This document shows, piece by piece, positions 1,805 through 24,216 of a stretch of 64,000 bases of DNA; positions within the stretch are counted from its first letter, which is position 1; each line of letters opens with the position of its first letter. The notes under the pieces are model-generated. The model was not told the DNA's origin and did no database searches. It saw nothing but the letters and a program-made list of their open reading frames with translations. A program made the position numbers and the translations under genes. Source of the stretch: Stropharia rugosoannulata (taxonomy: Eukaryota > Basidiomycota > Agaricomycetes > Agaricales > Strophariaceae); contig JANCIK010000010.1 of NCBI GenBank assembly GCA_028532985.1, positions 2,418,001-2,482,000 of the forward strand, given 5' to 3'.

Positions 1805-1886
1805 AGCAGCGAAGAAATTAGAAGAGCGTGCAGGTGGTCTGCAAACGAGGGAAGAAAGGGAATGAGCATCAAGGGAAAGCCAGACC

Positions 1887-3644: not shown

Positions 3645-3646
3645 TC

Positions 3647-3664: not shown

Positions 3665-3826
3665 GTAGGTTCAGAAATCTCATATAGTGTTTCGGGGACC
3701 ACGGCTTAGCGCCTATTACAAAACATTTCAAAAATTTCAAATACAACGGGGACGAGTAACAAGCGAGGCAAATTTCCTGCACCGTCGTCGCTAGCAGAAC
3801 CAGCGGAGGCTAGACCATCATTTGGT
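3665..3826 (+). other. Leader between primer-binding site and gag
   Basis: The leader is non-coding and AT-rich near its end. The stretch after about 3750 is conserved in B. The gag frame stays open upstream of the likely start, so an upstream non-ATG start cannot be excluded. Confidence 0.4.
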
Positions 3827-3829
3827 ATA

Positions 3830-5777
3830 TTGCCTCCAAGCGGGCGATCGACTAGGAGCAAGAAAGACGCTGAGCTTGTGGAACCATTGGTGATTACACC
3901 TACTCGAGATAGAAAAGCGAAGAGGAAAGCAAAGGAAGAGGCGTGGCTACAGATAGAAACACAGGATCTTGCTCAGCGCGTACCAGGAGCGCTTACAGAG
4001 AGTGACTCAGAGCGGGAGGACGGGCCCAGCGGATTCTGGGGACCGCCTTCTGGAATTGAAACAGACGACCGCTCAGCGGACGGAGACATTACGCTTGAAG
4101 TTGCACCATTTGGCTCATCAGATAGCCAAGCTACTCAAGACACACCTCCTCCGTTTTCGGAAGTATTCGAGACTGCTAAGAGATCCGCTCAGCGGACGAC
4201 AGATAATAGTGAGAGTGAGGCCGAGCGCGTGGCCAGAGATATATTTGAAGGAGACTTGTCAGACCTTTCCACAAGTAAACACGAACCGCCCCCTGAAATT
4301 ATCACCATGCCTAAGGAAACGTCTATGCCTGTGCGCGGAGCGCGCGGTGCACCAAGCTTCGACCCCTCTGCTGAGCGTGATGAACTCCCACGCTACTTCG
4401 AGGACTTAGAGGACTGGTTCAAGCGCTGAGGTGACGGAGGATGATGAGAGGAGAGGCTATGTAATCAAATATGTACCCATGCAGACAGCGGAGGAGTGGA
4501 AGAATTTACCAGGCTATGACACCAAGAGTTACGCTGAGCTGAAGAAGATGATCCTCAATGAATATCCTGAGGTGATCAGTATTCAGACGGGGTCCATCGC
4601 GCGCCTAAAGAAGCTGTGCAAGGAGAACCAGCGCATCTCGGAGGAAGACCTCCAGGTGCTGTTGGACTTCAAGCGGGCATTCTTAGCGGAGGCAGCGAAG
4701 TTGACCAAGGCGCCTACCTTGCTGGCCAATCATACACTGGTGACCTACTTCACCAAAAGTCTCACAGCGGGGTTCAGGGAGAGGTTGTTTAACAAGCTGG
4801 ATATCGACTACACTACGAGAACGTCGTTTGACAAGTACCTAAAGGAACGCAATATACCCTTTACGGCGCCAGCGGGGATTCAGGTGGAAGCGCAGACTGA
4901 GGACATGTATCCGCTGAAGCAGGTGGCAGAAATGGCGGAGCAGATGGCGCGCACCAAGAATCCTAGCACTTCGCTCAGCCTGACTCGAGACTCAGCGGAC
5001 AGGCTCATGCCTGTACCTGCCATCAAGACCGAGTCAGCGGAGGTGCATACGCTGTGCGGGGAGATTGAGGACTTGAAGGGTTTTGTAGCGTCGTTTAAAG
5101 ATACGTTGTCGCTGGTAGAAAAGACGGTGGCGAAGTCAAAGGAGACCAATAAGAAGGAGTTGGAAGATATTCTGTGCAATGTAATGTCATCGCGGGCGGC
5201 GCCTGTCGCTGCGCCAGTCCAGCCAGCGGTACCTATGATGCCAATGGGAGGACCAGGTTTCAGCGGAGCGCCGCTGCGTCCGTTTCAATACCAACAGCGA
5301 CCTGAACCGAGGTGCTTCTATTGTAAACAGACGGGACACATCGTAGCGGAGTGTATTGTGAGGCAACAGGATCTGTCCGCTGGGAAGATAATCATTACGG
5401 AAGCTGGAAGGCTCCAGCTGCCAGATGGATCGTCATTACCTTGGGACCCTTCGCGCGCTATCAAAGAACGTGTAGATGAGTGGCACAAGAAGAATGGGCC
5501 GCCAGCGCAGCAGACCTACATGGCGCCGGTACACCCAGCATACATGGGGACTCCGCCGAGCATGGTGTACGCCCAGGTCTACCAACCAGCCAGCTCTCTC
5601 GATGAGACTTATGAGGAGCAAATTCGAACGCTGAAACAGGAGCTGGACAGCCGGAAGGCGTTCTTAAAGGAGCGCTCAGCGGTCAAGACGCCAGAGGAGG
5701 TGATAGAGGAACAGCGGCAGCTGATCGCGACCATGAAAGCGGAGCGGGATGCAGCGCTGAGCCAGGGTTTCGATTGA
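3830..5777 (+). pseudogene. gag of element A (capsid and nucleocapsid), frameshifted
   Basis: This encodes the retroelement structural polyprotein. The first part (3830-4429) is acidic and low-complexity. The second (4431-5777) holds the capsid-like helical region, a CCHC zinc knuckle CFYCKQTGHIVAEC at about 5321-5362 that would bind element RNA, and a charged C-terminal coiled-coil-like tail. Compared with B, two lesions are visible. The B start ATG (43810) is ATA here at 3827-3829, and two bases are missing near 4425, which puts TGA after DWFKR. The gag stop at 5775-5777 overlaps the protease frame and is preceded by a canonical -1 slippery site. Confident as Ty3-type Gag. Confidence 0.85.
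5765..5771 (+). promoter_or_regulatory. -1 ribosomal frameshift heptamer G GGU UUC at the gag/protease junction
   Basis: In the gag frame the codons are CAG GGT TTC GAT TGA. GGGTTTC fits the X XXY YYZ rule exactly, and the protease frame lies at -1. Element B has the same heptamer at 45753-45759, also followed by GAT TGA. This would yield a Gag-Pro fusion from a minority of ribosomes. Confidence 0.65.
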
Positions 5778-7051
5778 GTCTGATGAAGGGAAGCGCGGGC
5801 AGAGTTCAGCGTAGCGGCTCTGATAAACCCAAGAACCCGGAAGACGTAAATAAGAAGCTACCAGTAAGAAGTACACCAAGGACAACTATCGAGGAGGTCG
5901 ACAGCGGAGATGAGGAAGAGTTTATAGAAGAGATTAGTAGACAGGCGCCCAGCGGAGCGGAGAAAAAGAAAGTAAGCTTCGCAGCGCCAGCGCAGAAAGT
6001 TGGGGAGAATAAAAAGCCAGCACAGGTGCCGTATGTAATGGTTCCTCCGCTGCGCGTACCAGAAAAGAGTCGGCCGCCTGTAAGAGAAGCGCCGGTGCCA
6101 GTGATAGAGAAAAGGAAGCCAGCGTATAAGTTGCGCGCGGCCATTGAGGATGAAGCGCAAGCGGACGAAGTCCTTAAGCGTTTAGAGAGCCAGAAAATAG
6201 AGATCACTCAAGGGCAATTATTGGGGATCTCTACAGCGGGGTTTAGGAGGAAGTTTGTCGAGCGTATCATACCGCGCAAAGTTCCGCTGGATGTAAATAC
6301 CATGCGGGTTTTGCAGCTGGATTATGAGGCAGAGGAGTGGGAGATGGACGAGGCCATCGCCCAGCTGAAGCAGGAGAATGAAGAAGAAGAGTTCATGCGA
6401 ATGGACGAGCTCCCAGCGGCGACATTCCTCACTTGCGCGGAGGAGCGCGGTGGATTACAACCCGGCACAATAATCATGGAGGATCCCTATGAGCAATACA
6501 TCTCGACGTTACAACCAGGCGAAAAGCCAAAGGGATTAATTGTGGCACGAGAGTCGCACCATCTCAAGGCGGTATTTCCGCTGATCAATGGGAAAGGCCG
6601 TGCGGAGACTCTGCTCGACAGCGGATCGCAAATAGTGTCTATGGCGCAAGATACTGCGGAGCGACTAGGCTTAAGCTGGGATCCTGACTTTACCATTAGG
6701 ATGCAGAGCGCTAACAAACAAGTCGAGTCGACTAAGGGTTTAGCGCGGAATGTACCTTTTGTGTTCAGCGGACTGACAGTGTACCTACAAGTGCACGTGA
6801 TCAGCGCGGCCGCCTATGAGGTTCTGTTGGGGAAGCCGTTCGAAATTCTCACTGAAAGCAATGTGAAGACGCGCGGGGATGGCACAGTGGAACTTACGCT
6901 GACGGACCCAAACACTCAGCGGAAGCTAGTGGTACCCACGTATAATTGAGGGTGCGGGCCGAAGATACTTCAGCGGGAACCAGATGTGCAGGACTCCAGC
7001 GCAGCGGAGGAGCCGCACGCCGACCAGGATTTTCAGTCCTCGATGATTTGA
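5774..7051 (+). pseudogene. Aspartic protease ORF of element A, one nonsense codon
   Basis: This is the retropepsin-type protease that cleaves the polyproteins. The catalytic region reads LLDSGSQIVSM (DSG-S motif) near 6610-6645, followed by the conserved ILTESNVKTRGDG segment near the end. The N-terminal half is charged, rich in Glu and Lys, and looks like linker. A TGA at 6947-6949 replaces CGA, which is intact in B, and cuts the frame. Without it the ORF would run to TGA at 7049-7051, ending DQDFQSSMI in both elements. The final stop overlaps the pol start as TGATG. Confidence 0.8.
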
Positions 7052-10000
7052 TGCGTCAAGGAGAGGTCGCGTTAATGTTCGAGCGGGATGATAGGACTGG
7101 AAAGATAGAGATAGCGGGGTATGCATTGCCAAAGAAGGGAGGGAGATTTGGCTCCGCTGAGCTGAGAGATGTGTACATGGCTCAAGCTGTGCACGAGGCT
7201 AAGATGGAGGATAAAGAGAAAGCATCAATTTATAAGTACTTTCAGCAAAAGGAATGGCGAGAAAAAGAGACGGTGAAAGGAGAGCCTAGGGGGCAATTCC
7301 GCTCAGCGGACCCCGAGCAAGGCCAGTCCGCGGAAAGGAGTAACTAGAAAGCGGTTAAGTGGTAAGAATGCCACTACTGTAACCGTCTTTGCAGGAAAGA
7401 AATATAAGCCGGTCGCTGACAAGGTCAGGCCCGTTTATCAAGAGCTACCAGAGAAATTCAGGATAGTGAGAGAAATAAAGGGAGATCCGCTGAAAGAAAT
7501 GCCTCCGCTGACGGTACACCCACCAGAGTTTGTACCCACGGGAAGGTACACAGCGGAGCGGAAGGAGGAAATAGATAAAGCGCACGGAGGAGATTTCCTG
7601 TGGCCAGAGGAGCGCAAGCTAGTACATCAGGTGTTCATGCAGCAGAATGAGGCGTTTGCGTGGGATGACACGGAAAAGGGGAGGTTTAGAACAGACTTCT
7701 TCCTGCCGGTAGATATTCCAACGGTAGAACATACGCCGTGGGTACTGAAAAATATACCCATTCCGCCAGGCATGTACGAGCGGGTGTGCAAGTTCATCAC
7801 TACTAAGATCCGCACTGGGACTTATGAACCATCCAGTTCATCATACCGGTCGCGCTGGTTCACAGTAACGAAGAAAGACGGGGTGTCCTTTAGAATAGTA
7901 CACAGCTTAGAGCCGCTGAACGCTGTTACCATCGCACACTCAGGATTGCCACCGGCAGCGGAGAGTTTGGCAGAACACTTCGCTGGGCGTGCGTGCGGCG
8001 GAATACTGGACTTGTATGTAGGTTACGACGAGCGGCTCTTAGCGGAGTCGTCTCGCGACTTAACAACATTCCAGACACCGTTTGGTGCGCTCCGCTTAGT
8101 AACCTTACCAATGGGCTGGACCAATTCTGTACCCATCTTTCATGAAGATGTAACTTATATTCTCCGCGATGAAATACCAGACGTCACGGAGCCGTACATT
8201 GACGATGTGCCTATCCGCTGAGAGGTCTACTGCGTAGCTAGACTCGAAATCGCGAAACACAACACACACACACACACCCAGCGGAGCGAGATCCTATCCC
8301 TTAGATCGAGCGAACGCCCTCAACTAAATGGTAGTATAATCTATGCTCTGCTCTGGTTCCCGTTCTGGGCGTGCGATGCGCACCTCGTGTCCTCTAGTCT
8401 TTGTAATAGCAAGTAGTGCCTGCAAGTTCGTTTGTAAGGAGGGGTTTAATTCTAGTAAATCTCGGATAGAGCCCGGTTGCTAGTGGCGTGCGCTAGGCAA
8501 AATGATGAATGAAATAAGTTGTGTTTAGCAAACGGCTTCGCTGCGCGCACTTCCGGGTCTGGTGACCTCGTGCGATGCGCGGACTCTCCAAAGTCCAACA
8601 ATCCAAGACTCTCCAAAGTCTTTCACCCGGCGGTGCAGTCTCACAGTCTAAACACTACAGTGCGAGTTTCCGTACACGGTTGTACTGACTCCTCACTGAG
8701 CTCTCCAAATGACCCGGTGGCCAGAAGCTATCCAAAACTCCTATAATTCACAGAACACTTCACAGTTAAGACCCTAACAAAAGCTAAACACAGCCCGCTG
8801 ACGGCCTGGGACAGAACCCAGCACACAGATCTAGTGGGTAGACAATTGCTTAAATTACTATAGACAAGGATACAGGTTTATATGCGATGTGCGCATGTGT
8901 ACTAATAATAAGGTAAAGTAAATACTAGCAACGCGCGGCCAAAGGTCCGCGCATCGCTTCCGGGCTTCCCTTCGAGTGTCCTGATCCCTTGGCATTCGCT
9001 GTGCGCATGTCGTTCATTCCCTCGGGCTTTTGCGCGTCTTTTGATGCGCGCCGCCACGGTCACATGATGTGTGGACTTAGACAAATTCTGCCTTTGCGAT
9101 GCGCGCATATGAGATACGCGCACAGCCCTTCACACCGCCTTTGGTATCCGCTCAGCTGTACTCACACCGCTCTTTGCTGGTGCTTAACCATTCTACGCTT
9201 CCCTGATCGCTCGCACAGACGGCCAAACTATGCACTCTAGACTGTGCAGCTCGCTGACCAATCCTTCTCGCGATACGGTGCGCGCAGGCGCTTGTAGTCA
9301 TGATGCTCGCGCGCTGATAGCTATAGACTATGAGGCAGGCTCAACTCTAGTCCCTCTGTGTTTCCCGCGCGCAGCTATCCCACTAGCGGACCTTCTAACT
9401 GTTTACACCCGTAGCCAAAAAGCAGCCCTGTCACCGCGGACCGAAGACACGGTATGAATTAGAGGATGGAGGGTACGAGACGATTCCAGAGAACAGCGGA
9501 ATCAGGCGTTTTGTGTGGGAACACATGCAAAATGTGAATAGGATAGTTCAGCGGATGAAGTACTCAGGAGGGACTTTCAGCGGAAAGAAATCCATATTGT
9601 GTGCAGCGGAGATTGTAGTGGTGGGACACTTATGTACCTACGAGGGTCGAAAGCCAGCGCCAGATAAAGTACACGCTATCCTCAACTGGGGGCCGTGTAA
9701 GAATGTCAGCGATGTGCGCGCCTTCATGGGTACGATGGGGCTCCTGCGTATTTACATCTCAGACTACGCTAAGCGAGCGGAGCACATACAGCGATTGTTG
9801 CGTGGGAAAGAACCCTTCGAGTGGGGGCCAGCGCAGCAAGCCAGTATGGACGCACTGAAGGATGGAGTGCGGAACGCACACTGTGTCAAGCCGCTGGACT
9901 ATACACTGCCAGGACCAATCACGCTGGCAGTAGATACGTCTTGGCGCGCTGTAGGATTTTATATCTACCAGCAAGATCCGCTGAACGCGAAGAAGCGCGT

Positions 10001-12203
10001 GTACGCCCGCTTTGGGTCAATTCTGTTAACTGAGAGGGAACAGCGGTTCTCACAACCAAAGAGAGAGCTATACGGGCTATTGCGAGCGCTGCAGGCGTGC
10101 TATTACTGGCTCATCGGAGCGCGGAAGCTGGTAGTGGAGACGGACGCCAAATATCTCAAAGGGATGTTGGATAATCCAGGCATGGGACCTAACGCTACCA
10201 TTAACCGCTGGATAGACAAGATCCTTATGTACCACTTTCAGCTGAAGCATGTAGCAGGCAAAACGTTTGGCGCGGACGGTCTGTCGCGACGAGAAGGACA
10301 ACCAGGAGATGAAGAGTATGAGCACTCAGCGGAGGATGATGACCAAGAAGTAGGCCCGCTGGAGTACGAGAAAGTGTATGAAGAGGATCCCGATCCACTG
10401 AGTTTAGAAGAGTTCAAGGACCAGATTGACAACTGCGGAGGGTATCTACAAGCTGGATTCCTCAACGAGTTGTTTGATGGTCCCGCTGAGCCAGCTAGAA
10501 CAGAGGCACATTCGGTTGACTGTTTCCAGTTAGAACTGGAGCAGGCCAGAAAAGAGACGAGAGAAGAACAGCGGACAGTGCGTAACTTACTACAGACAGA
10601 GGAGGTGTCGCCCGCTCAGCGGGCGTACTTAGAGAAATTTGTTCTGGCACATGTAATTCCAGAGTCGAAGATAGATGAGTTGGAAGATGAAGAGTACGAT
10701 GAGCGGAACAGAACATCAGCGGGGAAGGACATGGATGATAAGCTGCCAATGATAAGGTATTGGCTGCAAAATCCCAGTACAAGACCCAAGGATATGAGCG
10801 AGCGGGAGTATCAGAATTTCATCCGCAACGCACGAAACTTCTTCTTAGACAAGGATGGACGGATGTACCGGCACTCAGTGGACGAGGCACATAAGCTGGT
10901 AGTTGATCCCGCTCAGCGGACGCGCATGTTGCGCGCCGCGCATGACAGTTTGGGGCACAGAGGCGCATACGCCACACGCAAACTGCTGATGGAGCGCTTC
11001 TGGTGGCCAGAGCTGGAGCGGGATGTCTACTGGTATGTCAAGACATGCCATGTGTGTCAGCTGAGGCAAAAGACGATCATCCAGATTCCGCGGACAGAGA
11101 CACATACGCCGTCCATCTTCCAGCAGCTACACGCGGACACTATGCACATGTCACCTGCCTCGAATGGGTATAACTACATAGTGCACGGACGGTGTGCGCT
11201 GAGCTCATGGGTGGAAGGTCGTCCGCTGAAGAAAGAGAACGCAAGGGCGATAGCGCAGTGGATGTTTGAGGATATTATCTGCCACTGGGGATGTCTTAGA
11301 GAGATAATCACAGATAACGGTGGACCGTTCCGCGCAGCGCTCAAGTACTTAGAAAAGAAGTATGGTATTACAGGGATTACAATCTCAGCATACAACTCTC
11401 AGGCGAACAGAAAGATAGAGCGGCCCCATTGGGACATCAGACAAATGTTGTGGAAAGTGTGTGGAGGTACCGAGGGCGCACATAAGCGCTGGAGCAAGTT
11501 CTTCTACCATGTGCTGTGGGCGGACCGCGTTACAGTGCGCCGCGGATTTGGGTGTTCACCCTTCTTCATGGTCACTGGCGCGCACCCAATACTACCGCTG
11601 GACATCGCTGAAGCGACGTGGCTGGTCAAGTTACCAGATCGGGTACTTACCACAGAGGAGTTAGTAGGGTATCGTGCGCGCGCGCTGGCCAAACATAGGG
11701 ACACAGTGGAGGAGATGCGTCAGCGGGTGTCGAAGATAAAGCGGGATGCTATCAGAGAGTTTGAGCGAAAACACTCCGCTAAGATTAGGGACTATGCGTT
11801 CAAACCCGGCGATGTCGTACTGATGCGTAACTCTGGCATTGAGTCCAGCTTAAATCGCAAAATGTTGGCGCGCTGGAATGGACCATACATTGTTATCGCG
11901 CGGAAGGAAGGTGGCGCTTATCTAGTCGCTGAGCTGGATGGGTCGGTGCTGAAAGACAAAGTTGCAGCATTCCGCTTAATACCCTACTTTGCCAGGCGCC
12001 AGCTGAAGCTGCCAGCGGACTTAGACGATATCATTGATCAAACGCGCGAGAACCTCAACAAGATGATGTCAGCACCAGACTACGAGCCGGCCATACCTAA
12101 AGACTATATCTTTGATGAACCAGGAGTGGCTTCAGGCAGCGGTCAAGTCTCAGCGGACGAAGAAGATGATGATGAGGATGGGTGGGCGGAGCCCGATGCT
12201 TAG
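7051..12203 (+). pseudogene. pol of element A: RT, RNase H, integrase; frameshift and solo-LTR insertion
   Basis: ATG at 7051 overlaps the protease stop (TGATG). The reading begins MRQGEVALMF. About two bases are missing near 7300-7340 relative to B, giving an early stop at 7347. The frame resumes at 7466. Reverse transcriptase carries PYIDDVPI at about 8192-8216. A B-family solo LTR splits the gene at 8219-9433, and the frame resumes exactly after it. RNase H follows (AVDTSWRA; VETDAKYL). Integrase has an HHCC finger (HDSLGHRG ... CHVCQ) and D-D-E residues in HADTMHM, ITDNGGPF and KIERPHWD. A GPF/Y-like C-terminus (KPGDVVLMRNSG, WNGPYIV) and an acidic tail complete it, with no chromodomain. 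Ends TAG 12203. Confidence 0.88.
8219..9433 (-). repeat. Solo LTR of the B family inside pol A (1215 bp)
   Basis: On the plus strand it starts TGAGAGGTC and ends CCCTGTCA, the reverse complement of a TGACAGGG...GACCTCTCA LTR. It is flanked by a 4-bp direct repeat, CCGC (8215-8218 and 9434-9437). Comparison with pol B shows that removing the LTR and one CCGC rejoins the pol frame. It is rich in TGCGC/GCGCA (13 sites by hand) and has retained its CpGs, so it looks young. Confidence 0.93.
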
Positions 12204-12223
12204 AAGCGCAAAGTAGAAAAGGA

Positions 12224-12249
12224 GACCACAATAGAGTATATTGGGTAAA
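12224..12249. promoter_or_regulatory. Conserved element between converging pol and aORF4
   Basis: pol and aORF4 end tail to tail with 120 bp between them. A 26-bp core is nearly identical in B (50152-50177). It contains the near-palindrome CAATANANTATATTG followed by GGGTAAA. It may act in two-way polyadenylation or as a protein site. The role is inferred. Confidence 0.5.
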
Positions 12250-12323
12250 CTAAAGGAGAAAGGTACAAAAGAAACTAGCTAAGGGCCACTTTGAGGCGCT
12301 CAGCGGAGTAATTAAGAGGGCCA

Positions 12324-13637
12324 TCACTGCGGCGCGGGCTCCTCAGCGGGGCTGGTCCCAGTCAAATCCAAGCTGCGCTGTAAAGTCTCTAACTCTTTAA
12401 CAAGCAGAGCGCGGCGCTTCAGGATGAAGTCAATCTTGTGCAAGTCACAGATGATCTCAGCTTGCAAGTCTCCGATGAGACGGCGAGTGACGAGCTCGGA
12501 TGGGTTCCCGGTGTTCAGCGGTTCCTTAATGAGGTTGGTAGCAGCGTCGAGACAGGCATTGACTTTGTCATTCGAAAGAGTAAGATTGGTACCTAAAAGA
12601 AGATGAAGTAGTTCAGCGGACGCAACAGAGAAGAGTGAGGGCAAAGAGCGCACCCTGTACAATGAAAGGAGAATCGGCGAAAGTAGGAACGCCGTCAGCG
12701 CCGAGACGGGCCTTCTTAGAGGAAGCGTCGTGGAACGGTGTGTCGCGCGGAGAGCGCCGGTTGTCAGAGGAGCAGAGTGTCATGCCGCGGCCAAGCGCAC
12801 GAGTGCGATGTCCGCTGGCCTCAGTGCGCTCCCGCTGACATAGAAGTAAGAAAGTAACGAGGGAGGGAAGACGCAACAGAACGAACCTGACGAGGGGTGT
12901 CGGGAGGAGGCGCTGAGCGCTTCTTCGAAGGACTAGGCTCTGGGGTATTCTGGCAGCTAGGTACTCCGCCCTCAGTGGCAGCCTCGATCTTGTCATCGAG
13001 GGCCATCTTTTTAAGGAGGAGGTACAGCTGCATGTTAGTAATATCTAAAGAGAGTGAAGGAAGTCAGTCACACCTTGTCATCATCGGAATCGGGGGATGA
13101 GGTACCTCCAGGGGCAGAGACCGTCTCAGGATCGGCAGCGGAGCGCGAGAGGAGACGAACGTTGCGCTGAGCGGGCGGTTAAAAGAAAATAAAAGGCAGC
13201 AAGTGCATAGCGTACTGGTCCAGTGGGAGTATGCATGCGCTGACGCGAGGCAGCAACTTTCGCTTTAAAACTTGCTCATGCAGAGTGATAAAAGCGTTGG
13301 CAGCAGGAGAGAAAGTGCGGAAGTGGTGATCCGCCTCTAAGGAGGTGTAGATGGCACGCATCTCGTTGAGAATATCAACAGCCTCGCTGTTATTAATGAT
13401 ACGAGTAATGCCGCCGTGGGGATCACGCCAGCGGTTCTAAAAAGTTCGAGTGGTCAGCGGAGTAAAGGACCCAGCGGACCAGCTGAGTGTTGTGCGTACT
13501 AAGTCAATAGCCAGAAGCTCGAGGCTCCCGGTATAGTTGGAAGGCATGGCGGAAGCCAAGCCTCTGATATCTTGGATTAATGCCAGCTGATGCTTGACAT
13601 TACTAAAGTTGTACAGCGGAGCGGGTGCGTTGGACAT
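12324..13637 (-). pseudogene. aORF4 of element A: six-exon antisense gene with a 2-nt insertion
   Basis: Exons from the minus-strand start are 13637-13500, 13436-13216, 13166-13106, 13044-12887, 12834-12654 and 12592-12324. All five introns are GT-AG, 49-63 nt, and match the exon structure of B aORF4. The exon sum is two bases over a multiple of three. The surplus sits near 13262, where A reads two bases longer than B, so this copy is frameshifted. Without it the protein would be about 341 aa. It starts MSNAPAPLYNF, has a basic Pro/Ser-rich centre (PSPSKKRSAPP; SKKARLG) suggesting nuclear localisation, and a helical C-terminus (RRLIGDLQAEIICDL). I do not recognise the family. Confidence 0.7.
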
Positions 13638-14089
13638 GAGTGGCTGAGTGATTGAAAGTATGAGAGTGGGGCATATATATAGGCTCAGCGGAGTGCAGAG
13701 GACCTAATGAGGGGCGGCCAGTGGCGAGGAATGTGGCATCCCAGCGGACCAGACTCCCAGCGGAGTTATGGTATGAACGCTGGAGGTAGAAACAGACCAC
13801 CACATGCAGGCTCGCATAAAACGGGGTGCAGAGCGGGAGCAATTGGTAGACGAAATGAGATCCAGCAGAGAGGCGCGCCTAGCTGAAAGCACTGAGCGGA
13901 GGCTGATCGTGTGATTACCGCATTTGGAAAAATTATGTCCGAATCAGGTATTGGCACCGACAATACATAGTGCCTAACTAGATACTTGTCATTTCAAATA
14001 GCTATGGAGGCACCACATGTAGAGCCATTTACTCTGGTTACTGTGACAAGGGTATTCTACGAAGTAAACCAAGGAAGGGGCGTAATACC
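13638..14089. other. Intergenic region between aORF4 and aORF3
   Basis: It holds the aORF4 promoter (TATA at 13671-13682) and the region downstream of aORF3. CAGCGG words recur near 13690-13770. I see no coding sequence. Confidence 0.4.
13671..13682 (-). promoter_or_regulatory. TATA box of aORF4 (A)
   Basis: On the minus strand this is CTATATATATGC, about 35-45 bp upstream of the aORF4 ATG. A counterpart, ACTATATAAGAT, lies at 52721-52732 in B. Confidence 0.5.
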
Positions 14090-14634
14090 TCAAACATCCT
14101 GACATAATCCTGGTCTCAGCACAGCGGAGAAGGAAGAGAAAAGGGGACAGACGGGGAAGAAGTCCTCCTGGTAGAAATGCTGGGCGGCATAATGGAGGCG
14201 TTGAAAGTGTTCGGTGTGATTAAGAACGCCGTAGCGCTCAGCGTCGTTGGTACCACACAGGCGAAGCACAAGTTCGGTGTAATACAGCTGAGCGCAGAGA
14301 TGAGAAAGAAGCAGTGAATGACAGGTGGACTCGGTCAGCTCTAGGCCGCGCTGCGCGGACTACTCAGTGGGAGTACATGGACAGCGGAAAAGGGGCTTAC
14401 GGCGTGATCTTGAACTCGGTTGAGCAGCGGGAGGCAGACGCTCATAGGTAGCTGTTCCTCCACAGCGGAGTCCAGGATATAGTGAAGGGCAGTTACATAT
14501 ATCCGGCAGACTCGAGCTAGGTCGATGGGAAGGATAGCACTCAGCGGACGCCTGGGCAGAGCGTCGAGACGAAGGATGCGAGGATCTGAATGGGCAACTA
14601 ACAAGAGGTTACTCTCAGCGGACAAAGAGGGCAT
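14090..14634 (-). CDS. aORF3 of element A, two exons, 164 aa, unknown function
   Basis: Exon 1 is 14634-14401 (78 codons) and exon 2 is 14350-14090. The intron is 14351-14400 (50 nt), starting GTAAGC and ending CGCAG. B aORF3 has an exon 1 of exactly the same length and the same splice phase. The protein starts MPSLSAESNLLL. It contains LPRRPLSAIL and CRIYVTALHYIL, then a shared block around CAQLYYTELVLRLCG and QRLHYAAQHFYQEDFFPV. It is predicted soluble and helical, with no known motif. The start is only 63 bp from the aORF2 stop, so the two could share a transcript, though a TATA-like box lies between them. Confidence 0.7.
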
Positions 14635-14660
14635 GTTTACGTATAGAAATACAAGGGATA

Positions 14661-14670
14661 GAATTATATA
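14661..14670 (-). promoter_or_regulatory. TATA box of aORF3 (A)
   Basis: TATATAATTC on the minus strand, 27-36 bp upstream of the aORF3 ATG. B has GTAATATATATGG at 53741-53753. Confidence 0.4.
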
Positions 14671-14697
14671 CGCAGAGTGCCAGCGCAGCGGGACATC

Positions 14698-15166
14698 CTA
14701 ATCAGAGCTGACGTCGTCTACGACGAGCGCGGCATTGGGATCGACTTCGCGAATTTCGGCCTCATTTCGTTCGGAAGAAAGCAGCGGGTGGAAGGGCATG
14801 CCCAGATGACTGTATCGGTCAAGAATGCATAGAGCGGCATTACTGAGTAAGCGAGGATCGAAATGATCATCGCTGAACTTCCTGAGCACGGGCTTCAGAA
14901 ACACGACGGTCATGAGGAACGCCAGGAACTGGCGATTAAAGTCGATGAATCTCAGCGGAAGGGCGATGCGGTCCTGTGGAGATGGTCAGCGGAGGGGACT
15001 CTATGAAACGGAGCCTTACCAGCGCGCAGACAACGGCCTGCGCTGACTGCAAAGGCAGGTGAATCGTAGTTTCAGCGGAGTCTTCGTTGAGCTCAGCATG
15101 GACAGCCAGCTGTTTGAGGATGGAGGTGAACTGGCGTGCAACATTGGTACGCTGGTAGCGTTGCAT
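14698..15166 (-). CDS. aORF2 of element A, two exons, 140 aa, unknown function
   Basis: Exon 1 is 15166-15020 (49 codons) and exon 2 is 14973-14698. The 46-nt intron (14974-15019) starts GTAAGG and ends CCACAG. The B homologue has the same phase and an almost equal length (142 aa). The protein starts MQRYQRTNVARQFTSILKQL. The best conserved part is FSDDHFDPRLLSNAALCILD followed by RYSHLGMPFH, and it ends with an acidic tail (ALVVDDVSSD). It is helical, with no transmembrane segment and no family I can name. The ATG was chosen because the upstream in-frame ATG lies on the far side of the TATA box. Confidence 0.7.
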
Positions 15167-15619
15167 GACAGGTGGGATAAAAAGGAACAAAGAGCTGGTC
15201 AACTGAGGACAGTTGATTTTATAGTGAAGGGGAGAGAGCCCGCAAAAAAATATGGCAGTGGAGCACATGTGGGGAAAAAGAAGTCCACTGAGCGGACCTG
15301 AGAAGAAGATAAAAGTATACCAGCGAACACTCAGCAGAAGAGAAGTCAGCGATTGCTCAGCTGAGAGGAGTCTATAACTTGAAGGGACTTGAGGAACTTC
15401 AAACTCACTTCAGACTCACACAAAGAAGACAAGAACAAAAGAGGCATATTTGATTATAGCAATATCTAATTTACTTTACATATGCCAGATAAAGTAATAA
15501 GGAGCAGGAGAACAAGAAGTATAGAAAAGAGAAATAAGGGCCCCAAGGCCTGACAACCGGCGGAAGCGTGCGCCTGACCTCAATCCCCCTCCGCGGGAAC
15601 CTCGGCGGCGTCTACCTCG
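15167..15619. other. Intergenic region between aORF2 and aORF1
   Basis: It holds the aORF2 promoter and the region downstream of aORF1. About 40 bp at 15193-15236 resemble the polypurine-tract region before LTR A2 (17963-18006). No coding sequence is supported. Confidence 0.4.
15211..15223 (-). promoter_or_regulatory. TATA box of aORF2 (A)
   Basis: On the minus strand this is CTATAAAATCAAC, about 45-57 bp before the ATG. B has ACTATAAATT at 54301-54310 in the same context, with GGACAGTTGA on the plus strand. Confidence 0.55.
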
Positions 15620-17578
15620 CTAGGGACGCGAAGGAGTCAAGAAGGTGCGAACCACAGCGGGGGCTTTGCCTTTGGAAGCAGTAGTGAAGGGCTCGAGGCG
15701 CGAAGTGCTCGCGAACGGAGTGGCGGGAAGAGAGCGTTCCGCGGGAGTTCCTCGCTTGGATGAACGATCCCGTGAGCGTTTGGCCTTCTCTGCTGCGATG
15801 ATAGCGTCAGCCTCTTCAGCTTGGCGGAGGGCCGCGTCCTCGAAAGCTTGAGATTCGGCTGCATTGAAGGCTTCTAGAGTTATAGCCTGATCAGGCTGGG
15901 GGGCGGGAATGAAGGTGGTGGGGTCAAAGCGCGGGTGCTTTGGGTCATAGAAAGAGGCGGGGGCAACGATGAGGATCTTCCACGACGGCGGGGCACAAAG
16001 AGAGGCGTAGGCCTCGTGCAAGCGGTTGAGGTCAAGGCAGCGGAGCGCGTCGAATGTTTCGCAATCACGGCGCGGGCCAATAATGATCCCGGTGGGAAGA
16101 GTGAGCGCCATGGCGCGCGCCAGCTGTGAAAGTTCAATTAGTTGACCAAAGAACATGCGCTCAGCGGAGCGGCGCTGCTCTTCAGCCACACGAGCCTGCT
16201 CCGTGTAGGCGCTGAGGCGAGCGAAGCCAGACAGAAGGCCTGGAAAGAAAGATTATAAGTCAGAATGATAGATAGTGACGGAAAGTGGACTTACTGGTCA
16301 GAGAAGTACGATGCCACAGGGAGGAGTCTTCAATCGTTTTGTCGACCTCCGCGGGCTCGCAACAGAAGAGGCATTTTCCCTTCTGCTGGGTACTGCAAGT
16401 GCAGCAATTCCGTGCCCACCCACGGCAGATGCACTGATGGAGGCCTTCGTTTATACGAGCGTTGAAAGGACGCGCGCAGTGGTTGCACACCATTCCTCGC
16501 TGGGGAAGAGTAAACAAGTCAATAAAAATAAAATAAAATAAAAAGCCCAGCGGGCAGATGAGACACGCACGATAATAGCGCCTTCGAGGCGGGACTCGGA
16601 AGGGAGCATGCTCATATCAATGGCGTCGGGGAGGGGGGCACCAGCCAGGGCAAGCTTCGCAGAAAACACAGGAGGCAGGACGTCGAGAATCGGGTAGGTA
16701 GACTTGTAAGCAACCTTGTTACTGTCGGGACGGGTATTCGTGATCTCCTCGATTCTGCTGTCAGTCAGGGCCAAAGGAGGGCCGCCAGCGGAGCGGACGA
16801 AAGAAACCCCCGCTGAGGACTCGAGATCCGCCTGGGCTGTGGAAAGATCAGTAAAGAAAAGGGCAAGAAGGGCGTCGAGAAGAGACATACCAGCAATAGC
16901 GGCACTGGCAGCCAGTGCAGCTGGGCGCTGACGTTTGATTGGCTTGGGGAGTGGCGCGGAAGGAACGACGACAACAGGGGGAGTGGGAAGGCGCTTCCGC
17001 TTATCCTTGCGCACAGCGGGCGACGGAGATGAGGGCCGCTGAACTTCGTCGTCGGAAATCATAATGACATCTTCTACGGCAGGGGCAGCGCTAAGCAAGA
17101 GGGGATCGGGGGAGGGGTGAGGAGCGGAACCCAACAGCGGGCGGGGGCCAGGATTGTCGGTACCGTCCCACTGGGTGGGGAAGGCGGTTGCGAAGAATTG
17201 GAGATAAGAAGCCAAGGGCTGGTAACCGCTGGTAAACCAGCGACGCGCTTGCAGCTTCGGAGCAAGAGAAGGGTCGTCCGCGATGAGCATGTCGGCCACC
17301 GCAGAAAGAAGGAAGCACAGTTCGCGTACCCCGCTGTGGTAAAGGCCGTCGGAGCAATGGACACTCAGGTGGTCTTCGACAGTGTTGTCAATGACCCCCC
17401 GGAGATCCTCCAGACGAGCCAACCCATCATCGGAGAGGTCATCAGCGCCGGCCAAGATTTCAAATTCTTGATAGATGGCGAGCGCAGGGCAGAGTCGACG
17501 GAAACGATCCTGGGCGTCCAATTGTGCGTCCGCGCGCTCTTGAGCACGGCAGCGGCGGTCGAAATTCTTGAGAGACAT
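15620..17578 (-). CDS. aORF1 of element A: four-exon gene for a 592-aa Cys-rich protein
   Basis: Exons are 17578-16891, 16836-16571, 16499-16295 and 16239-15620. Introns of 54, 71 and 55 nt are all GT-AG, and exon lengths sum to 593 codons with stop. The N-terminus (MSLKNFDRRC) is helical. Residues from about 170 are Pro/Ser-rich, with VIMISDDE, which fits a SUMO-interacting motif, and basic clusters RKDKRKRLP and KPIKRQRP that look like nuclear signals. Exon 3 carries a Cys-rich module (CNHCARPF ... CICRGWARNCCTC ... CLFCC), probably zinc-binding. The C-terminus ends Ser/Lys-rich (ASKGKAPAVV). Element B keeps the order, the Cys pattern and three matching introns. Nuclear DNA- or chromatin-binding is an inference. 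Confidence 0.75.
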
Positions 17579-17996
17579 AGCAGCGAAGAAATTAGAAGAG
17601 CGTGCAGGTGGTCTGCAAACGAGGGAAGAAAGGGAATGAGCATCAAGGGAAAGCCAGACCCCTGCTTATAAACGATAACGCTCGCACTATGGAGGAATTT
17701 TCTGGAAGATAAACTACAGTGTGGCGGCGTCACATAAACTTTCAGGCAATCTACATAGAGGGCAGGGGTTTAGAAGCAGCGGCACGAAGGTGAAAAGGGG
17801 AAAGAATATCCTTAAACGGAGAAAGAAACAGATAACAATGAAAGTGGGTATCGGAGACGACCGAGAGCTAAAGATAGGCAAATAGGCGCTGGGGAAAGCT
17901 GAAAATAGAAAATGAGGTGCTAAAAGTAGACGCGGGGACAGTACTAGGTCTAAAAATACAGGAGGAGCTTGACTGAGGACAGTCAAAATTTTTAGT
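17579..17996. other. aORF1 promoter region, next to LTR A2
   Basis: This 418-bp stretch lies between the aORF1 start and the polypurine tract. Apart from the TATA-like box I see no feature and no coding sequence. Confidence 0.4.
17661..17672 (-). promoter_or_regulatory. TATA-like box of aORF1 (A)
   Basis: TTTATAAGCAGG on the minus strand, 83-94 bp before the aORF1 ATG. It is identical in the upstream copy (1887-1898). Confidence 0.45.
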
Positions 17997-18006
17997 GAAG
18001 GGGAGA
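17997..18006 (+). other. Polypurine tract of element A
   Basis: GAAGGGGAGA immediately precedes LTR A2 and is the expected plus-strand primer. Confidence 0.65.
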
Positions 18007-19417
18007 TGACAGGCCTGCGTTTACACCAGGACTGTAAGTGGTCACAGCGGGCGTCTTGGGCTGGAGTGCAGGGGTGCAGCGGAGCGGTGACTAGCCTGGT
18101 CAGCCGTCTCAGTGCTCAGCGCGTGCATCACAAATCATCACGTGTGTGCTCAGCAGGCGATTGTGTGGGGTTCAGCGGACTGTACGGGCCACAAGTACAC
18201 AGTTGAAGTACCTGGAATAGCTGTCAGCGGAGCACATAACGGTTACTGTCTTCTCAGCGGGAGACAGGAGTACAGCTGAGCGGAGAATATCAAAGGCGAC
18301 GAGCAGGACTGTGTGTAGACGGCGTCTCAAAGGGACTCAGCGGAACACATTACAAAGGCGAAATTTGCCTAAGTCCACTCGTCAGGTGACCGTGGTGTGC
18401 GCGCTGGAGCGTGTGATGCCCGAGGGAATGAACAATGCACACAGCACGGACTCCGCTGGGGAACTTTGGCAACGGTGACCAGACCTCGATGACCAAGAAG
18501 GAACCGCCCAGCGGAGTTTAACGGCGTCTCTCGGCGGAGGCTGGCCACACAACGGGGTCAGGTCGCGCTCAGCGGAGTAGCCATCAAAACGCCCAGCGGA
18601 GGCACATGTGCTCAGCGGACCTTTGGTCCGGCGTTGCTAGTATTTACTCTCCACCTAAATTAGTACACAGCGCGCGTCTATATAAACTTGTAATTGTAAC
18701 TACGGAAATCAAGCAATTGTCTACCCACTAGATCTGTGTGTTGGGCTCCGTCCCAGACCGTCAGCGGGCTGTGTTTAGCTTTTGTTAGGGTCTTTACTGT
18801 GAAGTTATTGTGAATCATAGAAGTTTTGGATAGCTTCTGGCCACCGGGTCATTTGGAGAGCTCAGCGGTCAGTGCAACCGTGTACGAAAACTCGCGCTGT
18901 AGTGTTTTGTGAATTGAGACTGCACCACCGGGTGAACGAGGTTCTGGATAGCCTCAGCGGAATAGGACTTTGGACAGTCCCAGCGGAACGACTTTGGATA
19001 GTCAGCAGAGCGAGGCACAATTGGAATACCAGCTTGTGTGAGCATCTGCATCAGTCACCGGACCTCAAACCCACTCAGCGGAATAAGCCCCGCAGAGCCA
19101 CCATCAAAACTACACATTACTATCGATACCCGGCGCTCAGCGGAGGTCGCCCAGACATTAATCTGAGACTTCTAGAATTAAACCCCTCCTTAGAAACGAA
19201 CTTGCAGGCACTGTACAGCGGACATCTGGACTGAACTTACGAGACTCTCAAACATCACAGTCCGCTCAGCGGAGAGGACCAGGAGAAGCGTAGACATCTA
19301 TAATCCGTTTAGCTGAAGAGCGTCGCTCGATCTAAGGGATACTAGGATCTCACTCCACTGGGGTTGTGTGTGTTGTGTTTCTTGTGATTCGAGTCTAGCC
19401 CCGCGGCAGACCTCTCA
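18007..19417 (+). repeat. LTR A2, right long terminal repeat (1411 bp)
   Basis: TGACAGGCC...GACCTCTCA. It is nearly identical to LTR A1, with small differences (an extra GC at 18402, GGGGAGTC shortened near 18867, two changes near 19240). TATATAAA lies at 18679-18686. The right end abuts Gypsy-2 pol sequence at 19418. Confidence 0.93.
18679..18686 (+). promoter_or_regulatory. LTR A2 TATA box
   Basis: TATATAAA at the same place as in LTR A1. Confidence 0.55.
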
Positions 19418-22400
19418 TCGTACTCAGCCTCCCCGTCGATTAATTCAGGGGGTGGTCGTGCGTAGTTAGGTCCGTGGGCCTCGGTTTCCTTATACGGTTT
19501 GAGTAGTACAATATGAAACACATCATGGATTTTCCAGTGGGCTGGTAGTTTTAATTTATACATAACGGGGGAGAGCACCTCCGTGATCGCAAACAGGCCT
19601 ACGTTTTTCGGAGATATCTTTTTCGATGCGTAATTCATCTTAAGGTTGCGTGCGTCGAGCCAGACCATATCTCCTTTCTTGTAGGTTGGTTAGTCGTGTT
19701 TGGTCCGTTTGATCATTCTTTGTCGCGCTAGTTCGTGAGCAGCCAAGGCTTCTTCTCTGTCTTTCTGAAGCATCTTGAATCTCTCTTCTGCTTCTGGGAA
19801 TTTCGTGTATTTGTACGTGGTTGGGATAGCGATGGGGTTCACTCCCATCTGTAGCTCGAATGGGGTTTTCTGGCGGTCGGCATGTCTTCGGCTGTTGTGG
19901 GTAAAGTCCAACGTTCCTAGTTTTCGGCTCCATGTGGTCGGGTTATTTACGCAAAATATGGAGATGTAAGCTTTGATTTCTTGGTTGAAGTGTTCCACTG
20001 TTCTGTCAGTCTGTGGATGGTATGTGGTGAACAATTTCTGTGTGATGCCGAGTAGTTTCATGAACTCCCTGAAGACTCTTGCAGTAAACCTAGGGTCTCA
20101 ATTGCTGGTGATTGTGTCAGGTAGGCTGTATCTTCTGAACAGGTTGTCAATCAAAAGCTGTGCAATCTCTTCCTTGTTTGCTGTTTTGTTGGTTTTTACA
20201 GTAATTAGCCCCTTAGTAGATTCATGGTCCACTATGGATAGAATGGCGTCGTACCCGTCGCTGTTCGGGAGGTCAGTTATCAAATCCCAAGTGCAATTTG
20301 CAAACGGTCAGTTGGAGGTGGGCGCTTTGATTAGGTTTAGGGTTGGTTTGTTTGGGCACCTGTTTATTTTGAATTCTTGGCAGGTGCCGCAGCCTTTACA
20401 GTAATTTTTGATGAATACCGCCATTCCTGGCCACCAGTATGCTTCCCTCACATTGTTGAGTGTTTCAATTTCTCCTGGGTGGCCTGCGGTTAGGTTGTCG
20501 TGGTAGCGTTGGGTGACTTTCCTTCTGAGGAGAAGGTTGTTGGGTATGTACTGCTTTTCTTGGTAAAACAGTCCCATTTCGCTACTGCTTTGTTCGAGCG
20601 TCCATTCTGGCACTTCCTTTGCTCCTTTCCCCGTGGGGCCATTTAGTAAATCGATAATCCTGTGGGCGAAGTCATCGGTTGTCAGTGCCTGGGAGATTTC
20701 GTCTTGGAGTTCCAGATCTATGTAGTTGATTTCGATCTCTTTGTCGAGGCTAAGTTGTCGTATGGACAATTTTGATAGGGCTTCATTTTGGTATTCAATC
20801 AGCCTTGCGAATAGATCGCCCGGTAGCATAGTAACCTTTTCGTTGTTCTCATTGTTTTTCGGGACGTGATCCGGCCTTCTGGATAGCGCATCAGACTGTA
20901 TCATCTGGGTTCCTGGAGTGTGTTTCATCTCGAAGTCATATTGCGATAGAAGCAGTAGCCATCGTGCTTGTTGTCCGTTTAGTTTCTGCGGGGTGCGATA
21001 GTATGTGAGATTTTTGTGGTCCGAGAGGATTAACAGTTTGTGAGGTCCTCCCATCACGTAGTGTCTCCATTCTGATAGCGCACGAATGATGGCCAGTAGT
21101 TCCCTGTCGTATATCTCGTATTTCCTTTCCGTTGGAGAGAAGGTTTTTGAGATGAATGCGCACGGATGTTTTTGTCCGTTGGTATCCAATTGCATGAGAA
21201 CAGCACTGCTTGCGTATTTTGATGCGTCTGATTCGATGATGAACGGCCTGGTTTGATCTGGCATGGTAAGCACTGGTTGTTCCGTAAAGCACTTCTTGAG
21301 TTCCATGAATGCTTGCTCTGTTTCTTCCATCCACTCGAATTTCTTGTCCTTTTTGAGAAGTTCGTTGAGCAGTCGTGCTATCTCGGAGTAATGACGAATG
21401 AATTTCCTGTAGAAGTTTCCGAATCCTAGGAAGGATCGCACTTGTTTTACGGTTGTCGGGGTTGGCCATTCTAGTAATCCAGCAACTTTCTTAGGGTCCA
21501 TGGCTATCTGTCCTTCTGAAATGATCATCCCGAGATATTCGAGTTGCGTCACTTCAAACTTGCATTTCTCTGGTTTGAGATAGAGATTGTTTTCCTTCAG
21601 GATTTCTAGTACCATTCGCGTATACCGTTCGAGGTCTTCCTTAGTTTGGGCAAAAATCAGAATATCGTCCATGTAGATGATGACGTAGTTCTTTCTGAGA
21701 GGTTCTCGGAACAGGTTGTCCATCATGGCCTGGAAAGTCGCGGGTGAGTTGCACATTCCAAAGAACATGACCTCTGGTTCGAATAGGCCAAATTTTGTGG
21801 TGAAGGCCCCTTTCCATTGGTCTCTGTCATGTATCTGTATGTTGTTGTACCCAGAGCGAAGGTCCAGTTTTGTAAAACATTTGGCCCCTTTCAGTTTGTC
21901 CAATAGGTCCGAGATCAGTGGGAGCAGGTATGCATTTTTTACCGTATGGTTGTTTAGATACCTGTAATCCTGGCAGGGTTGGAGTTTTCTGTCTTTCTTT
22001 CCAACAAAGAAAAAGGGGGATCCCATAGGTGAGTTGGACGGTTTGATGTATCCTTTAGCCAGGTTTTTGTCGATGAATTTACGAGTTTCTTCCTCTTCTC
22101 GAGGATTCAACAGGTAAATTTTAAATGACTTGGGTTCGAAGGTGTCCTTTAGCTCGATCCTGTGATCCCAGGGTTTCCTCTCCGGTAGCCGATCAGCCAT
22201 TTGTTTTCTGAAGATATCCAGAAAATTGTGGTATTCTTCTGGTATCATGTCCTCAAGCGGTTCAGCTGGTTTGTTGTCTTTTGCCAGTTCATGGGAGATG
22301 GTAGTCTTAGCGCGTATCCATGTTTCCGCTTCTGAGTGATCAAGTGTCGCGGTTTGGATGACTGTTTCCAGTAGCTCCCGTTTGTTGCCAGTTTGTCTGT

Positions 22401-23139
22401 TGTCAGTTGCCATGGTTGTCTTATCCTGTCTCCAGGAAATTTCTCCGGTAACCCAGTTGATGTCTGGGTTGTATTTGTTAAGCCATGGGTGTCCTAAGAT
22501 AATGTCCTGTTGGCCGAGTCCTGTAACGAAGAATTCCTCCGTGAATGTCCGTCCTAGTGCTGTAAATGTTAGTACTGCTTTATGTCTGATGGTCCCTCGC
22601 TTGTTCGGCGTTCCGTCCACGTTTTGTACTTTGAGAGGTTGGTCTAGTGGGGTCGTTTTGTTTTTGTTTTTCCGCACATAATTTTGATCAATAAATGATC
22701 CTTCTGCTCCGCAGTCGACGAGGGCGTTATTTTCAATGATTTTATCACTTATACTTTCGATAGGGAATTTTATGGGTAAAGTTGTGTATTTTCGTTCCCT
22801 ATCTACTTGTACATTGTGAATTAAGAAATCCGGAGAAACATACATTGAGCTATTTCTCCTTTTCAAAAATCCTGTTCGTCGTCGGAGTCTGGTGCAGCAG
22901 TCGCTATTTTGGCGCATTCTTTGAAAAATGCGGTGGCGTCTTTTTCGTTTTCCCATTCCATCTGGTTGATGAATTTCTTGGCGGAGTTGAAGTTGAACTT
23001 CCGCGGCTGTTCGGCTTTCTTTGGGGTTTCCTTTTTGTCGTTGTTCCACCATGGTTTGGTGGTTCGGTTTGCGTTGGAGGTCGAGGCTTTCTTTGGGCAG
23101 TCTTTCGCAAGATGCCCGGTTTGTTTGCAATTGAAGCAT
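19418..23139 (-). pseudogene. Gypsy-2 pol: protease, RT, RNase H, integrase; two nonsense codons
   Basis: The open frame 23139-20308 covers protease (LVDCGAEGSFID, a Cys in the usual Ser/Thr place), reverse transcriptase with YMDD (IIYMDDILIFA), RNase H (ESDASKYASS) and the integrase zinc finger (HDNLTAGHPGE ... CKGCGTCQ). TGA after APTSN, where CGA is expected, stops it at 20308. A second TGA after ITSN (near 20099) interrupts the integrase core, which continues with HPQTDRTVEHFNQEI. The end reads GPF-like sequence, then PPPELIDGEAEYDE, the usual lead-in to a chromodomain, where LTR A2 cuts it. Both stops fit C-to-T change at CpG. Confidence 0.88.
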
Positions 23140-24056
23140 GCTCCTTTGCGGAGGAGTTCTCCTCGTTCTGCGAAGGAGAGGGCAGCGACAGCCTTTTCTT
23201 CGTTCTGTTCCCTGGTCTTCTTGACCTCGATGGTGTCAACATCCATCGCAAAAGGGTCCCTGGCGGGCTTGTATCTGCCGCTGTTGGTTCGTTTATAGGT
23301 CATATGTTTGACCTCGTTCATTCGTTCACACGCTTGTTTGTAATTGCGCTCTTGTCTGATGGATCGCTCCTTCCATTCAGAGTAGGTTTCAGGTGGGGAT
23401 TCGTGGAAGAGGAGTTTCTTCCAAGCAGCGGGGTTAAGCGCTTTGCAAAAGAGATTGACTTTTCTTCCGTTGTCAGTGATCCTGGCTTGGTCGGTCAGGA
23501 TTTCGAATTTCGTGATGAACTCCTGGATTGGCATGGATCCTTGTCTGAGTTCCCTCAGTTTCTGCTGGGCATCTAGCTCGAGCTTAGTTCCTGCGAACGC
23601 CGCTTCGATTTTGTCCCTGAAGTGTGCGTATGAGTCGCTGATGACAAGGTTGTCGAGTACAGTTGTGTTCTGGGCAATGTAGTTGTTCTTCCATGGTCCT
23701 GCAGTTCCGTCCTGCATATGCCTGAGGGCGAAAATAATCTTTGAGGCACTGTTGGTGTATCTTCCAGGGTTTGATGCGAAGTGGAGTCTCAAGTTAATGA
23801 GGAATTCGCAACATTTTTCTGGAGCTCTGTTGAACAAGGGTATCTTCACCTTGTCTTCTTTTTCGGGACGGATGGCTTCCGCCTGGGTCCTGGCTATCGT
23901 TGCTTCAGCCAATCTTCGCTCCCTTTCTTCTAGGTTGCGAGTTCTTGTTTCCATTAATTCATTTGCCCGGCGCCATTGTTCCAGGAATTCAGCTGTGACG
24001 GGCGGTGGTGGTGTTTGTTCGGCGGGCTGTTCAAACATGGATCCTTCTCCTTCCAT
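22863..24056 (-). CDS. Gypsy-2 Gag, 397 aa
   Basis: This is an intact capsid and nucleocapsid protein. It starts MEGEGSMFEQ, has a Glu/Arg-rich coiled-coil-like stretch (residues 30-70), a retrotransposon capsid region (CEFLINLRLHF ... FITKFEILTDQARI), and a CCHC knuckle CFNCKQTGHLAKDC near residue 305, with acidic DSDDEQDF at the end. The stop TGA (22863-22865) follows GAT TTT, a run of five T, and pol continues in the -1 frame. Slippage on the T run is possible but not canonical. Gag overlaps the upstream part of the pol frame. Confidence 0.88.
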   Translation of the reverse strand: MEGEGSMFEQPAEQTPPPPVTAEFLEQWRRANELMETRTRNLEERERRLAEATIARTQAEAIRPEKEDKVKIPLFNRAPEKCCEFLINLRLHFASNPGRYTNSASKIIFALRHMQDGTAGPWKNNYIAQNTTVLDNLVISDSYAHFRDKIEAAFAGTKLELDAQQKLRELRQGSMPIQEFITKFEILTDQARITDNGRKVNLFCKALNPAAWKKLLFHESPPETYSEWKERSIRQERNYKQACERMNEVKHMTYKRTNSGRYKPARDPFAMDVDTIEVKKTREQNEEKAVAALSFAERGELLRKGACFNCKQTGHLAKDCPKKASTSNANRTTKPWWNNDKKETPKKAEQPRKFNFNSAKKFINQMEWENEKDATAFFKECAKIATAAPDSDDEQDF

Positions 24057-24216
24057 GTTTGGTAGGAATCTGTCTGGTTCTGTCGAGTATGACTCTGAGG
24101 TTCTAGTTGACTCAGTCGGGGTTGTCGATCTGGTGGTCCAGGGTCTGGTTGCCGTGGTGTTGTTGTATCGGAGTGTTACGAGGTGGGACTCGCAACAATA
24201 AGAGAGTTAGTTCTTT

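Follow-up and report, generated by a model that had tools for sequence, protein, structure and literature searches.

The 64,000-nucleotide stretch of the Stropharia rugosoannulata genome analyzed in this study (C10:2418001-2482000, hereafter the window) contained element A, a Ty3-type long terminal repeat (LTR) retrotransposon with two LTRs, a zinc knuckle, a protease, reverse transcriptase (RT) and RNase H preceding integrase, and a polypurine tract (PPT). Four genes, G1 to G4, lay on its minus strand, after pol, which ends at 12203, and before the 3' LTR (18007-19419); an earlier note on this DNA had placed such a block at 12324-17578, and both the coordinates and the genes were confirmed. 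G1 (15620-17578) was modeled with four exons (17578-16891, 16836-16571, 16499-16295 and 16239-15620), its protein comprising a helical N-terminus, a disordered middle, a six-cysteine module and a C-terminal part. G2 (14698-15166; exons 15166-15020 and 14973-14698) encoded 140 amino acids (aa), and G3 (14090-14634) had exons at 14634-14401 and 14350-14153, with a possible third at 14098-14090 judged by eye from the comparison of A with a second element, B. G4 (12324-13637) had six exons (13637-13500, 13436-13216, 13166-13074, 13027-12887, 12834-12654 and 12592-12324), and its frame was broken in A and intact in other copies. The block comprised 10-11 introns over the four genes. Element B carried the same genes in A's order, as the earlier note had also stated; its block, at 50252-56791, additionally held two insertions.

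Splicing, promoters and divergence were examined in 20 A-type copies (L011-L030). The ATG, GT and AG of G2 were kept in 20/20 copies, and the G3 intron retained GT-AG in all 20. Introns 2 and 3 of G1 were GT-AG in 16/16 mappable copies, and all three introns were so in 12 of the 16. G4 was spliceable at the proposed boundaries in 13/20 copies, 11 of which yielded a product of 347 aa. A TATA box was located 11-57 nt upstream of the ATG of G2 (20/20), G3 (20/20) and G4 (19/19 copies with a located start), compared with 7.9% of random windows; before the G1 start it was present in only 6/13 copies. Given these boxes, G2, G3 and G4 look like separately promoted genes rather than a single read-through frame. 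A Pfam search of all four products returned nothing above the cut-off.

Exons of the block were then sought in the 48-Mb genome (20 contigs), whose short introns and a fungalysin-type gene in one of its stretches have a fungal look. Match counts are lower bounds, and a copy that is split may be counted as several matches. There were at least 99 matches to G1 exon 4 (91 stop-free), at least 95 to G2 exon 2 (91 stop-free), at least 93 to G3 exon 1 (89 stop-free) and at least 94 to the last exon of G4 (91 stop-free), a recurrence of the four genes far beyond chance. Opposite-strand pol lay within 6 kb of 92/94 G4 matches, at a median distance of 145 nt. Conversely, G4 adjoined 93/96 pol matches with identities of 68% or more; the 113 pol matches in all divided into 93 with G4 and 20 without it (3 at 87-97% and 17 at 44-57% identity). 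G4 was downstream of G2 in 84/92 matches and G1 upstream in 84/92 (three short G2 matches left out), and G2 was not nearby for 12 of the 99 G1 matches. This two-way pairing of G4 and pol indicated that, for A-type and B-type copies both, the block is part of the element, and upheld the earlier proposal that the block had travelled with it. The two outcomes which that note had named as contrary to its proposal, an ordinary host locus and genes confined to one of the elements, were not encountered in this genome. Lying antisense between pol and the 3' LTR in most copies, the block is of the antisense additional open reading frame (aORF) type.

The ratio of nonsynonymous to synonymous substitution (dN/dS), calculated for copies against A wherever computable, was mostly 0.05-0.25 for the block genes, similar to pol (0.05-0.19). 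It was 0-0.1 for G1 exon 3, 0.07-0.23 for G1 exon 4 (10/15 copies), 0-0.19 for G3 exon 1, 0.07-0.26 for G2 in the more divergent copies, and 0-0.25 for the last exon of G4. Higher values, reaching 0.91 in G2 and 1.13 in G4 exon 2 (range 0.07-1.13), came from pairs with very few changes. Stop-free copies, adjacency to pol, low dN/dS and kept splice sites together demonstrated that the block is a mobile gene set under purifying selection and not a host locus.

The elements were also marked by motifs specific to each family: TCCGCTGAG in A, TGCGCGCA in B and ARCCCGGTWA in a third family, C (pol 56% identical), each rare or absent in the other families. The A-family array, TCCGCTG(AGC), extended over 3647-19419, mostly on the minus strand; TCCGCTG occurred there 72 times outside a solo LTR (60/72 on the minus strand) and was absent from 26.6 kb elsewhere in the window (19420-30753, 32168-42432 and 59039-64000). 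The 8-mer TCCGCTGA was observed 39 times in A against 1.4 expected (14.6 kb), and among the 210 letter arrangements of TCCGCTG the runner-up, GTCCGCT, had 24 copies and the median was 2. Genome-wide, TCCGCTGAGC was found 789 times against 80 for its reversed control, and on contig C1 69 of its 97 places fell within five A-type elements, with some of the others clustered. The B motif, TGCGCGCA, occurred 13 and 10 times in two B copies (0.5 and 0.4 expected) and was weaker in the window's older B copy (10 against 1.1 expected), where TGCACGCA-like forms were present. The C motif TATACCGG was observed 9 times against 0.3 expected. The family motifs were rare or absent in 21.6 kb of other window DNA, and no comparable array was found in the 2.9 kb examined of a copy of family D (pol 48% identical), a copy without the block. 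All three unrelated motifs include CpG, which may be chance with only three cases.

The candidate reader of these motifs is the six-cysteine module of G1 exon 3 (16295-16499, minus strand; CX2C-X14-16-C-X8-C-X2-C-X7-C). Its six cysteines were kept in 19/20 A copies, the exception (L020, in which the G1 start was also lost) being without one, and were present in three aligned B-type copies. Exon 3 was the best conserved of the tested G1 parts within A, with a mean identity of 87% that fell to 39% between A and B; identity of the exon-4 core was 76% within A and 54% from A to B. Conservation within A together with divergence from A to B is the pattern expected of a motif reader, as a correlation over few families. 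The triplet CGG is bound by fungal zinc-cluster proteins, and CGG is contained in the A and C motifs. Zn2Cys6 zinc clusters have the spacing CX2CX6C-X5-12-CX2CX6-8C; the G1 spacing resembles this class but has a longer first loop, gave no Zn_clus match in Pfam, and its structure model (pLDDT 50) was unusable. The C-family gene at the G1 position also had a cysteine module (L042, 2940-3152), with a sub-threshold match to DUF3716 (E 0.094).

VANDAL elements are DNA transposons. Passages of PMC5735166 describe how VANC21 of Arabidopsis VANDAL21 targets a 9-base motif that is family-specific, dense and in one orientation, and how its relative VANC6 has different motifs; VANC proteins bind the motif of their own family, and silencing marks are lost as a result (PMC5735166, PMC10398659). 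The combination of antisense genes with the element's own tag arrays suggests, from sequence, that the element recognizes and switches on its own copies. Our preferred explanation, at a probability of roughly 0.45, is that the block forms a self-recognition system resembling VANC, which serves activation or anti-silencing and in which G1 reads the motif. G1 would bind its own family's motif array through the six-cysteine module, G2, G3 and G4 would join it in a complex or assist it, and this complex would keep or make family copies transcriptionally active despite host silencing. As antisense genes with their own promoters, they would retain their introns through the RNA stage and could be expressed from every copy; such a survival of introns would accord with how reverse transcription works. 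Silencing pressure is also suggested by element B. Transitions in its 5' LTR (42433-43628) affected 17/88 CpG sites, 11/433 other C/G sites and 1/488 A/T sites, an excess of about 8-fold of CpG over other C/G sites, and those in its 3' LTR affected 11/80, 14/443 and 6/497, respectively. Such an excess is the usual mark of methylated CpG, and the CpG decay in B therefore suggests past CpG methylation.

Alternatively, the four genes could be accessory regulators of the retrotransposition cycle acting on RNA or particles, in the manner of retroviral HBZ or gene23 of maize Grande, the motif serving in genomic RNA for packaging, export or translation. Recognition of a single strand would fit the presence of the motifs in coding RNA and their strong strand bias, which was 703 to 140 for the A motif over 20 copies (mostly minus) and 12 to 1 for ACCCGG in C. 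Antisense accessory genes of plant Ty3 elements have likewise been discussed as regulators of retrotransposition in the relevant part of PMC7264820. The A motif was, however, densest in the LTR (10.6 per kb), and the B motif is palindromic, with flanked forms about equal on both strands, which suits double-stranded DNA. We regard this RNA-level role as rather unlikely.

The variability of G1 bears on both self-recognition and a further alternative. With neighbor copy L012 (98-100% throughout) set aside, identity to A was 93-98% in G4 and 95-98% at the tested pol end, compared with 63-93% in the G1 exons (DNA), whose matches were often partial in coverage, exon 1 being unmatched in one copy. 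G2 and G3 were intermediate between G1 and pol/G4. LTR identity to A was 93-95% in the 15 copies with a full LTR and 99% in L012, three copies having little or no LTR match. Synonymous divergence (dS) in G1 was saturated in several copies, as against about 0.1 in pol. The linkage was mosaic: the G1 exon-4 core of L029 resembled that of L012 (97%), but its G2 exon 2 resembled that of L028 (100%), and L013 was near A in G3 and G2 exon 2 and far from it in G2 exon 1 and G1. About eight G1 allele classes were distinguished by eye in the 20 A-type copies. From this divergence and mosaic linkage, we read G1 as a recombining set of long-kept alleles, apparently exchanged between copies, lying between homogeneous pol/G4 and LTR. 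The earlier claim that the block had diverged in parallel with gag and pol thus stood for pol, G4 and G2 and failed for G1, with its many old alleles recombining between copies.

The motif persisted within this variable region. The A motif occurred 3-10 times in 19 A-type G1 islands, where shuffled sequences gave means of 0.25-0.95, and its flanks were near-random. In pairs of islands at 58-76% identity, 0-4 motif positions coincided, with the alignment register uncertain; judged from these alignments, the islands keep their motif density while the positions change from one G1 allele to another. The allele classes, the saturated dS and the mosaic G2 linkage would also be expected if G1 hypervariability reflected diversifying or frequency-dependent selection for copy exclusion or host escape instead of motif recognition. 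The strong conservation of the cysteine module within A speaks against this explanation, which we think rather unlikely as a replacement for self-recognition; the two are compatible.

The G1 island was flanked in A and B by two modules, each consisting of a hairpin (7-bp stem), then an A/T stretch, then a polypurine tract. The terminal module of A (17969-18006, plus strand) lay at the edge of the 3' LTR, as it did in two B-type copies, C and D. The internal module of A, a second copy of the terminal one (15199-15240, plus strand), was situated about 2.8 kb from the LTR, just upstream of G2, and overlapped the G2 TATA box; B-type copies were alike (54284-54323, plus strand, in B), and in C the internal module separated the third gene from the fourth. 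A scan for exact stems found the internal module in 17/20 and the terminal module in 19/20 A-type copies and also gave a few unrelated matches, among them 4 in 21.6 kb of other DNA, two of which overlapped each other. Both modules also occurred in L043, L044 and C (L036, L042). The stems differ in sequence between modules yet stay complementary. Plant Sireviruses, according to the portions of PMC2829016 that treat them, have a CGG/CCG-type LTR motif, extra PPTs upstream of the 3' LTR and an inverted repeat at the PPT. In the present elements, too, an extra PPT lies upstream of the 3' LTR, and the internal module that holds it may be a further site of plus-strand priming, a role that has been considered for Sireviruses. 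Sireviruses are plant elements of the Copia class, whereas here there was one extra PPT, with the whole hairpin copied, inside an antisense block. The paired modules may also aid cassette exchange of G1. We tentatively propose that G1 and the family-specific tags of 8-10 bases co-evolve, with G1 as an exchangeable cassette between the PPT-hairpins and the families insulated from each other within one nucleus. Under the preferred explanation, new pairs of motif and G1 would let lineages part.

Sireviruses also provide a precedent for a host factor reading the motif arrays, the antisense genes being unrelated and having another role (envelope-like, transfer or assembly): their LTRs carry repeated motifs built on a CGG-CCG core, they have more than one PPT, and no element-encoded reader is named in the passages of PMC2829016 concerned. 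A single factor would leave unexplained three families with three unrelated motifs in one host, and the D copy without a block was also without an array. We consider this explanation unlikely. It is highly improbable that the block is a piece of host DNA that was captured and does nothing for the element: its introns and separate promoters resemble those of host genes, and searches with G1 and G2 brought up no similar protein, but such a capture was contradicted by the dN/dS values, by the stop-free state of more than 90% of exon matches and by conservation between A and B.

Several observations nevertheless weigh against self-recognition by G1. The loss of identity from A to B is not unique to exon 3, since the G1 N-terminus fell from 64% to 38% and G3 from 93% to 55%. 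Sequence comparison of the four proteins with the Protein Data Bank matched no natural protein, and two structure models gave no fold. The islands of A and L012 held only 3 motifs, a number equaled by some of 20 shuffles of A, and for the B copy of the window, taken alone, the 8-mer signal did not exceed that of controls. Half of the A motifs (36/72) were in gag/pol coding DNA, unlike VANC targets, and with a palindromic motif in B, orientation provides no common rule across families. A host factor might be what reads the motif, or the motif might work at the RNA level, and only three pairs of motif and family were available, which makes the covariation with G1 a correlation.

Antisense extra genes in a Ty3 element are of a known kind; as far as literature searches show, a spliced set of four such genes combined with motif arrays is new. 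The likeness to VANDAL is that the A and C motifs are short, dense, family-specific and in one orientation. VANDAL motifs are mainly non-coding and often in tandem repeats, as far as PMC5735166 describes them, while here an LTR element with antisense genes carries the motifs in coding DNA too. No VANC-like domain was found among the four products above the Pfam cut-off, a comparison made with Pfam models only and not with VANC sequences. HTLV-1 HBZ is a single antisense gene, likewise spliced, whose transcripts arise at the 3' end of a retroelement. Compared by description, it resembles the block as a spliced antisense gene at the 3' end, with one gene against four; the HTLV antisense promoter sits inside the 3' LTR (PMC7264820, in part). 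The plant Ty3 aORF-3R genes (gene23 of Grande, RIRE2, Retand) are alike in lying antisense between pol and the 3' LTR, and gene23 has its own promoter, as noted in a passage of PMC7264820. They differ from the four genes, 10-11 introns and family-specific motif array found here, and neither TRP28 nor any other Pfam domain was detected above the cut-off in the four products. The antisense gene brtn of Boty-like Ty3 elements in Botrytis, cited in PMC7264820 and PMC8365987, is likewise from a fungal Ty3 element and is single by its title, by which alone it was likened.

The remaining features of the window are as follows. The A LTR pair was 99.0% identical; the 5' LTR (2233-3646, plus strand) was common to A and a tandem neighbor copy, whose 3' end formed positions 1-2232 of the window. 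The 3' ends of this A-type pair with one common LTR (1-3646 and 15784-19419) were 99.3% identical. On the plus strand, gag (zinc knuckle), protease and the first part of pol occupied 4410-8218, and the rest of pol, with RNase H and integrase, 9437-12203; the 3' LTR, also on the plus strand, held 15 TCCGCTG copies. Pfam matched the aspartyl protease, RNase H and integrase H2C2 domain; the gag zinc knuckle was just under the cut-off (E 8e-4), and the piece holding the RT core gave no match. A was not pristine, its pol being split by a solo B-type LTR inserted inverted (8219-9436, minus strand), which is outside the system, and its G4 being frameshifted; open-frame copies occur elsewhere in the genome.

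Element B lay between its 5' LTR, described above, and a 3' LTR at 57868-59038 (both plus strand), a pair only 88% identical. Its minus-strand genes were G4 (50252-52662), broken by an insertion at 51337-52335; G3 (53164-53712); G2 (53783-54263); and G1 (54756-56791), truncated at its 5' end by a Copia-like fragment (from 56792). The G4 insertion was one of two inverted copies, 88% identical, of a repeat of about 1 kb (the other at 33615-34556), which looks by eye like a non-autonomous DNA transposon. Family C carried a block of the same layout, and the one D copy examined had none. The shared layout in C indicates, on sequence grounds, that the block predates the A/B split, and perhaps that it is much older.

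Our analysis added to the earlier note the G1 island, the family motifs, the exon-3 pattern, the duplicated PPT-hairpin and the C block. Antisense extra open reading frames of Ty3 elements are conserved and have been an open puzzle; in this case four of them, all spliced, occur together, and each is represented by about 90 stop-free exon matches. A quantitative clue to function lies in the family-specific motif arrays and in a cysteine module that is conserved where the motif is common and diverged where the motif differs. If this link holds, sequence-specific self-recognition would extend from the VANDAL transposons of Arabidopsis to fungal LTR elements, and the reason for keeping antisense genes would be explained.

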